Of a stretch of DNA of 40,239 nucleotides, positions 9,970 to 40,239 are shown in pieces (the stretch's first letter is position 1; each line of letters opens with the position of its first letter). The notes under the pieces were generated by a model, which worked only from the letters and a program-made list of their open reading frames with translations, made no database searches and had not been told where the DNA came from. The stretch comes from Clostridiaceae bacterium (GTDB lineage: Bacteria > Bacillota > Clostridia > Acetivibrionales > DUMB01), in contig DULF01000086.1 of assembly GCA_012840535.1 (NCBI GenBank), forward strand, positions 1-40,239, in the 5' to 3' direction. The translations under genes were made by a program, and so were the position numbers.

Positions 9970-10949
9970 AGTGTAAATATCTTCTCCTTTTTAATGTATT
10001 TTTCCAAAATTTCAAGATGCTCAGTTTTTATTCTTTCCATAACAGGCTCCGGATACGATACAACGTTGCCTTTAACAAAATACTCTTTTGCATAGAGCAG
10101 GGAGCTGCTCCGTACCTTTTCAATCCTCTTGAAGAAGTCCACAGGCATGCGGAAAAATCCGTATCCTACATCCAGTATGCTGCCAGGGTCAATTTGTGTA
10201 AAAACATGATGGTAGAATTCTTTATAGGCATCTTCCATTTCAGGGTCTGCAAAAACGGGGTCAAAGCAGATTCTGACACTAAAACCGCGTGCTGTTGCTG
10301 CTTTGACTGCGTTAATCCGTGATTTAAGGGAAGGAGTGTGGCGTTCATACTTTTTTATAATTTCATCCGGAGCAAGAGTGAATGCAATTATTAGATTTTT
10401 GAGAGGCTGATAATCGTTATAGAAGGCTTGGTTTGCGCTTTTTGTACGCACTTCCGCCAGCATGTCCGGGTGCGACGCAAAAAAATCATAAAAATATTGA
10501 AGATACGGAATAATGTTGTGGAAGGCAATTAAATCAGTGTCGTAGGACACTGCCAGAAAGACTTTCTTTCTGGAGTGCAGCAAATCTTTCATTGCTTCCT
10601 TGAAGTCTTCCACATTCACAAACGCCACTATGTTTGCCGATGGATACATGCCCTGAAGGAAGCAGTATTCACAGTCGAACACGCAGTTAAGCAAAAAAGA
10701 GGTGTAATAGAAATTCGGATGGTCAAAACTCTGGCAAACCACAGGCCCTTCATACAAAAACTGCCCGTCTTTTACCGCCAGTATCAGGGACGGATACCGC
10801 TTCTGAACGGCCAAATTCTGTTTTGGCCGGTTGAAGACATCCTTGTAATGCCGGATGGTTACCACTTCTGAATCTACATACTTATGAAGCAGTTGCCTGG
10901 TTATATGGTATTCATAAGCTTTTTCCTCTATGTAAATTGTATTAAACAT
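9966..10949 (-). CDS. Spore photoproduct lyase-like radical SAM protein
   Basis: A 327-residue radical SAM protein of the SPL family (bona fide SplB repairs the thymine dimer spore photoproduct; about 340 residues). The Cys89-x3-Cys93-x2-Cys96 motif, followed by F-L-Q-G, binds the 4Fe-4S cluster, and the N-terminal Y-I-E-E-x-A-x-E-Y matches SplB. B. subtilis SplB has an essential hydrogen-donor Cys141 in A-S-C-T-S-D; here the matching stretch reads A-V-S-Y-D-T-D (about 133-139) with no Cys nearby, so a different reaction or donor is likely. The alignment is by eye. ATG 10949 was chosen because it matches the SplB N-terminus and overlaps the previous gene's stop by 8 nt; AAAGGAG lies 11 nt before it, and an in-frame TTG at 10955 with closer spacing is an alternative. 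It is embedded between a nucleosidase-like gene and an SDR gene. Confidence 0.85.
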   Translation of the reverse strand: MFNTIYIEEKAYEYHITRQLLHKYVDSEVVTIRHYKDVFNRPKQNLAVQKRYPSLILAVKDGQFLYEGPVVCQSFDHPNFYYTSFLLNCVFDCEYCFLQGMYPSANIVAFVNVEDFKEAMKDLLHSRKKVFLAVSYDTDLIAFHNIIPYLQYFYDFFASHPDMLAEVRTKSANQAFYNDYQPLKNLIIAFTLAPDEIIKKYERHTPSLKSRINAVKAATARGFSVRICFDPVFADPEMEDAYKEFYHHVFTQIDPGSILDVGYGFFRMPVDFFKRIEKVRSSSLLYAKEYFVKGNVVSYPEPVMERIKTEHLEILEKYIKKEKIFTL

Positions 10950-35254: not shown

Positions 35255-35520
35255 TGAGCCATATTTACCCACATTTGTATTAACATAAAGCGGTTTTGGC
35301 CTGATTTGATTTCAACATTTTTATCCACAACTGAAATGGGCTGGTATAAGTTATTCACAGCTTTGTCCACATTATCCACAGGCTTTATATGCACAAAACA
35401 TAAGTTTTTCACAGGTTGCTTGAGGAATGTATTAGCTTATTTTCAAAAAAATGTATATTTAAGCAAACTAAACTAATAATATGATTAAACAATGCTGATA
35501 AAACAATATGGTTAAAACCA
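35255..35520. other. Intergenic region upstream of hpf with DnaA-box cluster
   Basis: This gene-free stretch contains seven DnaA-box-like nonamers in the same orientation. Two are perfect TTATCCACA (35321-35329, 35372-35380); TTATTCACA (35351-35359), TTGTCCACA (35363-35371), TTACCCACA (35265-35273) and TTTTTCACA (35405-35413) are near matches, and 35388-35395 (ATATGCAC) is a weak one. AT-rich sequence follows at 35440-35520. The 54-bp core 35346-35399 is repeated at 39905-39958. No dnaA gene is present in the window, so this may be a DnaA-binding or titration site rather than the origin. Confidence 0.7.
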
Positions 35521-35549
35521 GGAGGATTTATTGATTGAGTATCGAATAT
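35521..35549 (+). promoter_or_regulatory. SigH-type promoter of hpf
   Basis: GGAGGATTT (35521-35529) and ATCGAATAT (35541-35549) are separated by exactly 11 bp. Both match every position of the B. subtilis SigH consensus RNAGGAWWW-N11/12-RNNGAATWW. B. subtilis hpf (yvyD) is known to be controlled by SigH and SigB. Transcription would start near 35556. A competing reading is AGGAGG (35520-35525) as a ribosome site for a 9-codon TTG-started ORF at 35531-35560. Confidence 0.75.
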
Positions 35550-35621: not shown

Positions 35622-36152
35622 ATGAAATATGCTGTAAGCGGAAAAAATATTGAAATAACAGCTGCACTAAGGGAAAAAGTTACTAAGAAGCTGGAAAAGC
35701 TGGAGAGGTTTTTTAGCAAAGATGCAGAAGCCCAGGTGACAATGAGCGTAGAGAAAAACAGGCATATTATAGAGATAACGGTTATTTTTAACGGCACCGT
35801 GATGAGAGCGGAAGTAGAAAACGATGATATGTATGCCGCGATAGACAAGGCTATGGATATTATTGAAAGACAAATAAGAAGAAATAAAACAAGACTTGCA
35901 AAAAGGCTCCGTGAGGGCGCACTAAAGAATGAGAATTTTAATATGGACACTGAAGTGGATGAGGAACAGGAGTTTAAGATTGTGCGTTCAAAGAAATTTG
36001 CAATAAAACCCATGGCGGTAGAAGAAGCAATTTTACAAATGAATTTAATTGGACATGAATTCTTTATGTTTACGAATGCTGAAACAAACCAGGTAAATGT
36101 GGTTTACAGGAGAAAGGACGGAAACTACGGCCTGATCGAGCCGGAATACTGA
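35622..36152 (+). CDS. hpf: Long-form ribosome hibernation promoting factor
   Basis: A 176-residue long HPF, which binds the 30S decoding region and dimerises ribosomes into inactive 100S particles. Residues 1 to about 100 are the RaiA/YfiA domain (S-G-K-N-I-E-I-T-A-A-L-R, then L-E-R-F-F), residues about 105-118 a linker, and about 120-176 the C-terminal dimerisation domain (I-V-R-S-K-K-F-A-I-K-P-M, then G-H-E-F-F-M-F and Y-R-R-K-D-G-N-Y-G-L-I). AAAGGAG lies 11 nt before ATG. A SigH-type promoter and a palindrome precede it and a terminator follows, so it is a single-gene unit. Confidence 0.97.
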   Translation: MKYAVSGKNIEITAALREKVTKKLEKLERFFSKDAEAQVTMSVEKNRHIIEITVIFNGTVMRAEVENDDMYAAIDKAMDIIERQIRRNKTRLAKRLREGALKNENFNMDTEVDEEQEFKIVRSKKFAIKPMAVEEAILQMNLIGHEFFMFTNAETNQVNVVYRRKDGNYGLIEPEY

Positions 36153-36327: not shown

Positions 36328-38562
36328 ATGAATTTGCTTGAAAATTTAAACGAACAACAAAAAGAAGCCGTCCTGCACACTGAAGGTCCGCTGCTTATAC
36401 TTGCGGGCGCAGGTTCCGGAAAAACCAGGGTGCTTACACATAGAATTGCGTACTTAATAAAAGAAAAAGGCGTTTATCCGGGCAATGTCCTTGCTATTAC
36501 ATTCACAAACAAAGCTGCAAGGGAAATGAAGGAAAGAGTTGAAAAACTGTTGGGGGACCTGTCGGAAAATATTTGGGTTGGAACTTTTCATTCCGTATGC
36601 GTGAGGATTTTGAGAAAAGATATAGAGAAGATAGGATTTGACAGGAATTTTGTAATTTTTGATACTGAAGACCAGCTTAAGCTGATAAAGGATTGTTTAA
36701 AGGAACTCAACCTCAATGATAAAATTTTCCCGCCCAAGATGGTTCTTGAAATGATTGGGAAAGCCAAAGACGAGCTGATAGAACCTGAAGCGTATTCTAA
36801 CATGTATTCATCAGATTTCAGGCTTGGCAAAGTAGCAGAGTTGTACAGCCTTTATCAAAAAAGGCTGAAGCTGAATAATGCCCTGGATTTTGACGATATC
36901 ATCCTTTTTACTGTTAAACTGCTGGTGGACAACCCTCCGGTGCTGAAGTTTTATCAGCAAAAATTCAAATATATACATGTAGACGAATATCAAGACACAA
37001 ATACGGCCCAATACCATCTGGTGAGCCTTTTAGCACATGCAAGCAGAAACCTGTGCGTTGTAGGTGACGACGACCAGTCGATATATGGCTGGAGAGGGGC
37101 GAATATAAGGAATATACTTGATTTTGAGAAAGAATTTAAGGACTGCAAGGTGATAAGGCTTGAACAAAATTACCGCTCTTCCCAGACTATTCTTAATGCT
37201 GCCAACAATGTTATAAAAAACAATACAGGAAGAAAAAAGAAAACTCTATGGACCCGAAATCCTGTGGGATGCAAAATCCAATATTACCATGGCGGCAACG
37301 AACATGAAGAAGCCATGTTTGTAGCCAATGAAATCAAAAGGCTTGTTTTAAACGAGAATAGAAGCTATAACAATTTTGCGGTTCTATACAGGATGAACGC
37401 ACAGTCGCGTGTCCTTGAGGAAATGCTTATGAGGGAAGGCATACCCTACAGGATATACGGCGGGTTGAGATTCTATGACAGAAAGGAAATAAAGGACATA
37501 ATTGCATACCTGAGAGTTGTGTTAAATCCTTCGGATGAAATGGCCCTGAAAAGAATAATAAATGTACCCAGAAGAGGAATAGGAAACGCTACGCTCGATA
37601 CAGCGGAGCAAATTGCACGAAACAAAGGCTTAAGCATATTCAACATCATATCGTCTTCTGATGAGATAGACGAATTGCGTCGGGCATCTTCCAAGTTACA
37701 GAATTTTGTCGACCTGATAAATAGATTCAGGGCTTTGAAGGACAGCATTACAATATCCGAACTTATACAGGAAATAATTGAGCAATCAGGCATACTCCCT
37801 GAACTTGAGGCCGAAAAGACGGAAGAGGCGCAATCCAGAATAGAAAACATCAAGGAGTTTATTTCCGTTGCAATGGAGTTTGAAGCTCAAAGCGATGAAC
37901 AGACCCTGGAGGCTTTCCTTGCAAATATATCACTTGTTACCGACATCGACGAGTACGAAGAAGAGAAGGAAAGCGTTGCACTGATGACTTTCCACAGCGC
38001 CAAAGGGCTTGAATTCCCTGTTGTATTTATGGTGGGCATGGAAGAAGGTATTTTCCCCGGATACCGTTCAATTACTGACGAAAATGAACTTGAAGAAGAA
38101 AGAAGGCTGTGCTATGTAGGAATGACCAGGGCTATGGAGAAACTATACCTGGCAAGTACACAGAGCAGAACGTTGTTTGGCAGCACTTCATACAATGAGG
38201 AATCGAGGTTTATAGGTGAAATACCGCCGGAACTGATTGAAAATCTTAGCGGGAATGCATATGTAGACGATTATTATGGAAGAAATGTAAACAGTTATTA
38301 CAACAGGAATGTTGCAAATACACGGACTAATTCTTTTGCGTCCTCAAAAGACTTCGGAATCAGAATAGAAAACGTTGTTAAAAAGCCTGTTGCTGAATTT
38401 GATTTTAAGGAAGGCGACAGAGTGATACATAAAAAATTCGGTGTGGGTACGATTTCTTCCATTGAGAAAGACGGGGACGATTACAAACTGGAAATTCATT
38501 TTAAGAATTATGGCATGAAGAGGCTTATGGCCGCTTACGCAAACCTGGTAAAACTCGTTTAA
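36328..38562 (+). CDS. pcrA: ATP-dependent DNA helicase PcrA/UvrD
   Basis: A 744-residue SF1A 3'-5' helicase for nucleotide excision repair, replication restart and removal of RecA filaments or stalled RNA polymerase. Walker A G-A-G-S-G-K-T is at 27-33, D-E-Y-Q-D-T-N is motif II, D-D-D-Q-S-I-Y-G-W-R-G-A is motif III, L-E-Q-N-Y-R-S follows, and T-F-H-S-A-K-G-L-E and Y-V-G-M-T-R-A are motifs V and VI. The C-terminus (about 690-744, F-K-E-G-D-R-V-I-H-K-K-F-G-V-G-T) is the Tudor-like domain that contacts RNA polymerase in Bacillus PcrA. The linker before it is Asn/Tyr-rich. No ligA follows, unlike in B. subtilis. Confidence 0.97.
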   Translation: MNLLENLNEQQKEAVLHTEGPLLILAGAGSGKTRVLTHRIAYLIKEKGVYPGNVLAITFTNKAAREMKERVEKLLGDLSENIWVGTFHSVCVRILRKDIEKIGFDRNFVIFDTEDQLKLIKDCLKELNLNDKIFPPKMVLEMIGKAKDELIEPEAYSNMYSSDFRLGKVAELYSLYQKRLKLNNALDFDDIILFTVKLLVDNPPVLKFYQQKFKYIHVDEYQDTNTAQYHLVSLLAHASRNLCVVGDDDQSIYGWRGANIRNILDFEKEFKDCKVIRLEQNYRSSQTILNAANNVIKNNTGRKKKTLWTRNPVGCKIQYYHGGNEHEEAMFVANEIKRLVLNENRSYNNFAVLYRMNAQSRVLEEMLMREGIPYRIYGGLRFYDRKEIKDIIAYLRVVLNPSDEMALKRIINVPRRGIGNATLDTAEQIARNKGLSIFNIISSSDEIDELRRASSKLQNFVDLINRFRALKDSITISELIQEIIEQSGILPELEAEKTEEAQSRIENIKEFISVAMEFEAQSDEQTLEAFLANISLVTDIDEYEEEKESVALMTFHSAKGLEFPVVFMVGMEEGIFPGYRSITDENELEEERRLCYVGMTRAMEKLYLASTQSRTLFGSTSYNEESRFIGEIPPELIENLSGNAYVDDYYGRNVNSYYNRNVANTRTNSFASSKDFGIRIENVVKKPVAEFDFKEGDRVIHKKFGVGTISSIEKDGDDYKLEIHFKNYGMKRLMAAYANLVKLV

Positions 38563-38716: not shown

Positions 38717-38914
38717 ATGTTGGATTATCACAGTGATGAGCAATTGACGGCTGTGGGGCAATCCTGCAGACATTATGAATCCCTGGGCTTTGTAGGCAAC
38801 AGGTATGGCGCAGGTGAGGGGAGCATATCATGCAGGACATGCAAAAACTGGAACGGCAGTACATGTGTGAGGCAGGCATTTGACAGTGTACTCAGCAATA
38901 TTGAACGATCTTAA
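38717..38914 (+). CDS. Small Cys-rich protein, unknown function
   Basis: A 65-residue protein with four cysteines: Cys17, then Cys39-x2-Cys42 and Cys50, a spacing suitable for zinc or an iron-sulfur cluster. A very good ribosome site GGGGAGG (38703-38709) lies 7 nt before ATG 38717, which is the main reason to accept it. No signal peptide. It stands alone between pcrA and the convergent HAD gene. I recall similarly small C-x2-C proteins in clostridia without known function. Confidence 0.7.
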   Translation: MLDYHSDEQLTAVGQSCRHYESLGFVGNRYGAGEGSISCRTCKNWNGSTCVRQAFDSVLSNIERS

Positions 38915-39879: not shown

Positions 39880-39958
39880 TTATCCACAGACAGAATGAGC
39901 TACAATAAGTTATATACAGGTTTATCCACATTATCCACAGGGTTTATATACACAAAAC
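39880..39958. other. Second DnaA-box cluster (copy of the 35.3 kb element)
   Basis: Three perfect TTATCCACA boxes (39880-39888, 39922-39930, 39931-39939), the last two directly adjacent, plus TTATATACA-type boxes at 39910-39918 and 39944-39952. The 54-bp part 39905-39958 aligns without gaps to 35346-35399 with 6 differences. All boxes point the same way. No gene overlaps. Confidence 0.75.
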
Positions 39959-40021
39959 GCCTGTTTTATTGAAGAATTTGGTCGAGAACTGTAAATATCA
40001 GTAATAAACTGGGATTACAAG

Positions 40022-40239
40022 GTAAAAAGTGTCGATGTGTTTTTTTGTAAAGTGTCAACATCTTTTTATAATAGTAAATGGACAAGTGAAAAGGTCATTT
40101 CCAGTTTGCAAAAGCAATTTCCACACTTTTTACTATCCTTGGCTTGTAAAACTTATTTCCGCTTACTAAAAATTGGAGCAGAATTCCTTTTTCAAAAAAC
40201 AGAAGCTATTTTAAAAGGGCTTTATAGCACGGTGAAAGC
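40022..40239. mobile_element. Possible edge of an IS21-like or related element
   Basis: Two direct repeats of the type GTAAA(AA)GTGTC (40022-40033 and 40047-40056) are followed by GGTCATTTCCAGTTTGCAAA and GCAATTTCCACACTTTTTAC. A promoter-like TTGTAA (40045-40050) with TATAAT (40067-40072), 16-bp spacing, points into the following sequence. Subterminal repeats of this style and a promoter reading inward resemble the ends of IS21-type elements, from memory. No transposase reading frame is visible before the window ends, so the identification is tentative. Confidence 0.3.

Follow-up and report, generated by a model that had tools for sequence, protein, structure and literature searches.

The locus and its features

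The window analysed here is the whole 40,239-bp stretch, contig DULF01000086.1 of the Clostridiaceae bacterium assembly GCA_012840535.1. In its right part, the gene for the long ribosome hibernation promoting factor (hpf) is followed by a pcrA/uvrD helicase gene, and a DnaA-box element occurs twice in intergenic DNA, in the same orientation. The blocks at 35346-35399 and 39905-39958, described in the first-pass annotation, show 48 identical bases out of 54 in a gap-free alignment and lie 4559 bp apart. Homology extends beyond this 54-bp block to a pair of approximately 79 bp (35321-35399 and 39880-39958; BLASTN, 84% identity over 80 bp), and the window flanks of the two copies show no further similarity at that level. 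Both copies open with a perfect DnaA box, TTATCCACA, 30 bp upstream of box 2, which the annotation had overlooked. The common box order that it described is found in both copies, with the exception of box 2 of copy 2, which is degenerate (TTATATACA). The features are listed below, with offsets counted from the start of box 1.

35321-35329, plus strand: copy 1, DnaA box 1, TTATCCACA, offset 0; conserved in alignment A1
35351-35359, plus strand: copy 1, DnaA box 2, TTATTCACA, offset +30
35363-35371, plus strand: copy 1, DnaA box 3, TTGTCCACA, offset +42
35372-35380, plus strand: copy 1, DnaA box 4, TTATCCACA, offset +51
35387-35395, plus strand: copy 1, weak box 5, ATATGCACA; overlaps the left palindrome arm; conserved as TTATAT.CACA
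35392-35411, no strand: copy 1, decayed palindrome, CACAAAACATAAGTTTTTCA; 14/18 of the order consensus CACAAAACANNTGTTTTGTG
35521-35549, plus strand: sigma-H-type promoter of hpf (ggAGGATTT-11-atcGAATAT), downstream of the module
35622-36152, plus strand: hpf, long ribosome hibernation promoting factor (PF02482 and PF16321)
36328-38562, plus strand: pcrA/uvrD helicase (Pfam and synteny); a neighbour not consistently linked to the module
39880-39888, plus strand: copy 2, DnaA box 1, TTATCCACA
39910-39918, plus strand: copy 2, degenerate box 2, TTATATACA
39922-39930, plus strand: copy 2, DnaA box 3, TTATCCACA
39931-39939, plus strand: copy 2, DnaA box 4, TTATCCACA
39946-39954, plus strand: copy 2, weak box 5, ATATACACA
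39951-39970, no strand: copy 2, partly decayed palindrome, CACAAAACGCCTGTTTTATT, read from the sequence

Using the pattern TTRTNCACA, four boxes were found within 80 bp in the window, and 200 Markov shuffles of the window never reached three; over the whole window there are 10 boxes, versus 3.2 expected. When the entire genome (3.19 Mb in 240 contigs) was searched, the only strong matches were the two window copies (E values of 6e-24 and 2e-22, with the next best at 0.06).

Three further observations concern the surroundings. The contig end carries a repeat (40104-40200) that is 81-84% identical to sequences on seven other contigs, several of them at their ends; it is IS-like and probably broke the assembly. 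A small Cys-containing protein of 65 aa is encoded after pcrA (38717-38911); it has no Pfam match, and homologues with 34-42% identity are encoded at the same place in L075 and L081. Within pcrA, positions 38070-38161 weakly match the Rfam family n00280 (46.5 bits, under its threshold of 65.2), which is an sRNA of C. difficile located inside a helicase gene.

The module is conserved throughout the order

With an 80-bp query, 59 of 60 relatives gave matches, and hpf adjoins the element at each of the 19 best relative loci. A sequence-only profile (R1) matches 55 of the 60 relatives, with 1-4 copies each, and 42 of the 43 good assemblies. The box offsets are fixed across 38 aligned copies, in which the box sites are invariant or nearly so. 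Information content amounts to 119 bits across a 100-bp block and drops to background on both sides, in line with the annotation's observation that the spacing is kept while the flanks diverge. From this comparison of sequences, the element is a conserved module of approximately 100 bp, made up of four DnaA boxes in direct orientation (offsets 0/30/42/51), a fifth, weak box and a 20-bp palindrome. The best-conserved copy is the one directly upstream of hpf. The pair of copies is not a conserved unit: at the matching site above the HAD gene, copy 2 is absent from three relatives (L075, L062, and L067), and in the window it is probably a lineage-specific duplicate.

One relative (G003; L072:7156-7544 and 10471-10600) carries three more copies, which surround dinB and yabG at approximately 70 kb from dnaA; two are divergent, and one is followed by a perfect 42-bp inverted repeat.

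A palindrome adjoins the boxes

In the relatives, the palindrome reads CACAAAACA-NN-TGTTTTGTG; it covers 20 bp at offsets +71 to +90, overlapping the weak fifth box, and lies 20 bp from box 4, measured from start to start. A score of at least 17/18 was obtained in 20 of the 23 hpf copies examined. In the window the palindrome has decayed (14/18 in copy 1), and it could therefore not be seen from the window sequence alone. The pattern ACAAAACNNNNGTTTTGT is present in 48 of 60 relatives, usually once, and the reversed control pattern gave 2 matches. When the places were compared with the profile matches, approximately 48 of 54 ACAAAACNNNNGTTTTGT sites fell inside the module.

As the arms of the palindrome do not covary, it is more likely to be bound as DNA by a dimeric protein than to form a hairpin in RNA, and most simply it would be the site of a putative dimeric partner protein. 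A structured RNA was considered. A conserved non-coding element, raiA RNA (Rfam), is found upstream of hpf/raiA genes. Both this RNA and the module are located at hpf, but no Rfam family, raiA included, matches the intergenic region of the module, and with the arms not covarying a structured RNA was rejected. For a LexA operator, a site of the GAAC-N4-GTTC type common to SOS genes, no support emerged from the loci covered: the palindrome is of the type AAAAC-N4-GTTTT and near single-copy, and GAACNNNNGTTC was not found in the uvrB and dinB loci examined.

In Lachnospiraceae and related rows, an AAAAC-N4-GTTTT-like site follows the row of boxes by 31-41 bp. In several Lachnospiraceae loci the distance is fixed, at 38-41 bp, and differs from that in the order. 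Loci with this site include some with hpf (L111, L114, L124, L134, L146, and L156) and some with no hpf in the fetched DNA (L112, L168, and L205).

Association with hpf within and beyond the order

Between the module and hpf, a sigma-H-type promoter with AGGATTT...GAAT, as at 35523-35547 of the window, is present in 21 of the 25 regions ahead of hpf that were compared within the order. The distance from the start of the module to the -35 element varies from about 155 to 430 bp, which does not indicate direct contact with the promoter. DnaA-regulated promoters have boxes that overlap or abut the promoter at a fixed spacing, and no such arrangement was found here. The annotation had linked the element to the pcrA/hpf locus. 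The link to hpf stands, and pcrA was rejected as a constant partner, since the module stays with hpf while the gene that follows varies (pcrA, secA or others).

Beyond the order, a search of the GTDB collection with the pattern of boxes 2-4 gave at least 115 loci; the 80 titles among the matches listed were all Bacillota or metagenome-assembled genomes (MAGs) named as such. hpf was found in the fetched stretch of 48 of 115 matched loci and is the most frequent neighbour by far. After hpf, the recurring neighbours among the matches listed are gcp/tsaD, glyS and hrcA (glyS and hrcA assigned from sequence, not by Pfam). Copies not near hpf adjoin unrelated genes (fliT/flgN, yabG, dinB, uvrB, exoA, and gcp), and in Blautia the core is present without hpf in the fetched DNA; regulation of a single gene thus does not explain the module. 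Paenibacillus has the order fliS-fliT-(module, reversed)-(csp)-hpf-secA, and in two relatives of the window a second copy lies beyond a FlgN/FliT-type gene and fliS. Together these arrangements suggest an old element at the fliT/hpf site.

In addition, hpf was located by PF16321 in class and phylum samples, which avoids the bias of an element-based search. Among 60 hpf loci read, the three-box core (0/12/21) occurs within 1 kb upstream in 22 and downstream in none. All 22 are oriented with hpf, and three come from the taxonomic order to which the window belongs. Core scores are nearly bimodal (at least 23 versus mostly 14-18). As the core was present at 22/60 loci, and upstream of hpf in 3 of 28 complete genomes, the association is old but patchy.

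The main alternative that these data raise is that DnaA at the module alters hpf transcription and so couples ribosome hibernation to the replication state. The upstream position on the strand of hpf, the frequency of hpf among the pattern loci, the module staying with hpf as the downstream gene changes, and the intervening sigma-H promoter speak for this explanation; hpf of B. subtilis is likewise sigma-H dependent, as well as (p)ppGpp dependent (PMC12421865). It is nevertheless unlikely in our view, with boxes that stay clear of the promoter at a variable distance, a reversed core approximately 550 bp away in Paenibacillus, and the same module at other genes, including the Blautia core.

In a group of clostridial MAGs (L106, L110, L113, L138, L141, L155, L175, L181, and L189), a row lies upstream of a HAD-like gene and glyS. 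Ahead of it stands TGTCGAAAAA, a sequence similar to a Spo0A box.

Chromosomal position and known DnaA-box sites

Proximity to oriC was read from complete relatives; the genome of the window is in 240 contigs. In 10 complete relatives, in which dnaA was located by Pfam, 23 of 24 strong copies lie within 0.33 of a replichore from dnaA, at a median distance of 0.19 for hpf copies and 0.10 for non-hpf copies. Orientation is equally consistent: 22 of the 24 point away from oriC, including copies that are not near hpf. Five of the ten genomes belong to one genus, so these counts are not independent, and lengths were rounded for three sequences. Moreover, hpf is fairly origin-proximal regardless, its distance with and without the core not being significantly different (p = 0.11). 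For these reasons the non-hpf copies are the better evidence of position. A conserved box row near oriC in complete relatives is consistent with a DnaA-control type of module, which the annotation had put forward.

Similar sites are known in B. subtilis, where DnaA-box clusters (DBCs) are listed at ywlC, ywcI/vpr, yydA, gcp, trmE and sda (PMC5295017, citing Okumura 2012; PMC4447404), and where deletion of all six leads to early initiation (PMC5295017; PMC13220808). Like the module, they consist of several intergenic boxes outside oriC, occur several times per genome and are mostly found in the origin half, and in the complete relatives the module is likewise near oriC. Unlike for the module, hpf is not among the regions of Table 1 of PMC4447404. 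E. coli datA also resembles the module in being a non-coding DnaA-box locus that lies close to the origin but outside it and carries a site for another protein. It spans approximately 1 kb with five boxes and uses IHF, whereas the module is approximately 100 bp; B. subtilis has no IHF (PMC13220808).

A DARS-like site, which regenerates ATP-DnaA and promotes initiation, would act with the opposite sign to datA, and we consider this very unlikely for the module. The E. coli DARS sites are far from oriC, and the oriented, oriC-proximal placement fits datA or a DBC better. DARS1 and DARS2 do have a short DnaA-box core with regulator sites nearby, and the fixed few-box core with an adjoining conserved non-DnaA site resembles that core-plus-regulator layout (PMC5295017), though location and partners differ.

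Relation to oriC

The genome of the window has an ordinary dnaA/dnaN origin on another contig (C169), in which oriC2 contains TTATTCACA followed by trio-like repeats. In relatives, oriC2 has a box, a weak box at +12 and a DnaA-trio near +21. Some clostridial oriC2 (basal unwinding) regions (PMC7561715) contain three direct boxes in the same phase as the module; in two of them (L096 and L177) the full three-box row stands ahead of the trio. In the module a third strong box stands where the trio begins in the relatives' oriC2, and no DnaA-trio was found in the window copies or the aligned copies. The module thus appears to be an origin-like box row minus the DNA-opening part.

This shared phase speaks for a secondary or ancestral origin, and the annotation had suggested an origin-proximal or bipartite one. 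That explanation is largely refuted, as the module has no trio and is followed by the palindrome instead, there is no dnaA nearby, the ordinary oriC lies elsewhere, and the module profile does not match oriC. A dispersed or mobile repeat with incidental DnaA boxes, as two copies in the window, one near a contig end with a repeat found on other contigs, might suggest, is refuted by the order-wide conservation of position, together with 1-4 copies per genome, the lack of terminal repeats and homology that ends at the module.

Possible function

Taken together, the element is probably an oriC-proximal, non-origin site of DnaA assembly or titration, serving as a sink or conversion site. On its four direct boxes, DnaA would assemble into a short oriented oligomer; the 0/12/21 core matches the boxes that stand ahead of the DnaA-trio in certain oriC2 regions. 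Lacking a trio or unwinding element, such an oligomer could not open DNA; the site would then hold DnaA or alter its nucleotide state. Because of its nearness to oriC it would be doubled soon after each initiation, and free DnaA or ATP-DnaA may be lowered as a result, as by titration at the B. subtilis clusters or by ATP hydrolysis at E. coli datA. In this way the module probably helps to time chromosome copying, as a switch or a sink. The core is dispensable over long times, as only about a third of the sampled class and phylum genomes carry it upstream of hpf. Pure titration would not predict so strong a tie to hpf, which counts against it.

A more elaborate form of the sink or conversion site can be offered tentatively: a composite, near single-copy replication-control locus of Clostridia, in which a DnaA oligomer on the trio-less row and a palindrome-binding protein would couple initiation to hibernation at the sigma-H-driven hpf. 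If true, this would to our knowledge make it the first composite element of the datA/DARS type, with a partner of its own, to be known outside Proteobacteria.

DnaA-box clusters outside oriC are already known. This one differs in its fixed architecture, its order-wide conservation, the near single-copy palindrome and the tie to hpf. In mainly open-access literature we found no description of the 0/30/42/51 layout with a palindrome, nor of a DnaA element tied to hibernation. According to reviews, B. subtilis lacks datA and DARS, and only partly redundant box clusters are known. Little is known of DnaA-controlling chromosomal sites outside Proteobacteria, and a short, precisely arranged, order-wide element with a palindrome found about once per genome offers a defined target for studying DnaA titration or nucleotide control in Clostridia. 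The palindrome may provide a route to a new DnaA partner, and the tie to hpf points to a possible connection of replication with ribosome hibernation that can be tested.

The genome of the window contains another DnaA-box cluster (C122:54902-55198; L017:2903-3199) directly downstream of gcp/tsaD, where B. subtilis also has a proven cluster (PMC4447404). Rows adjacent to gcp are also present in other Clostridia (L107, L132, L143, L183, and L083).
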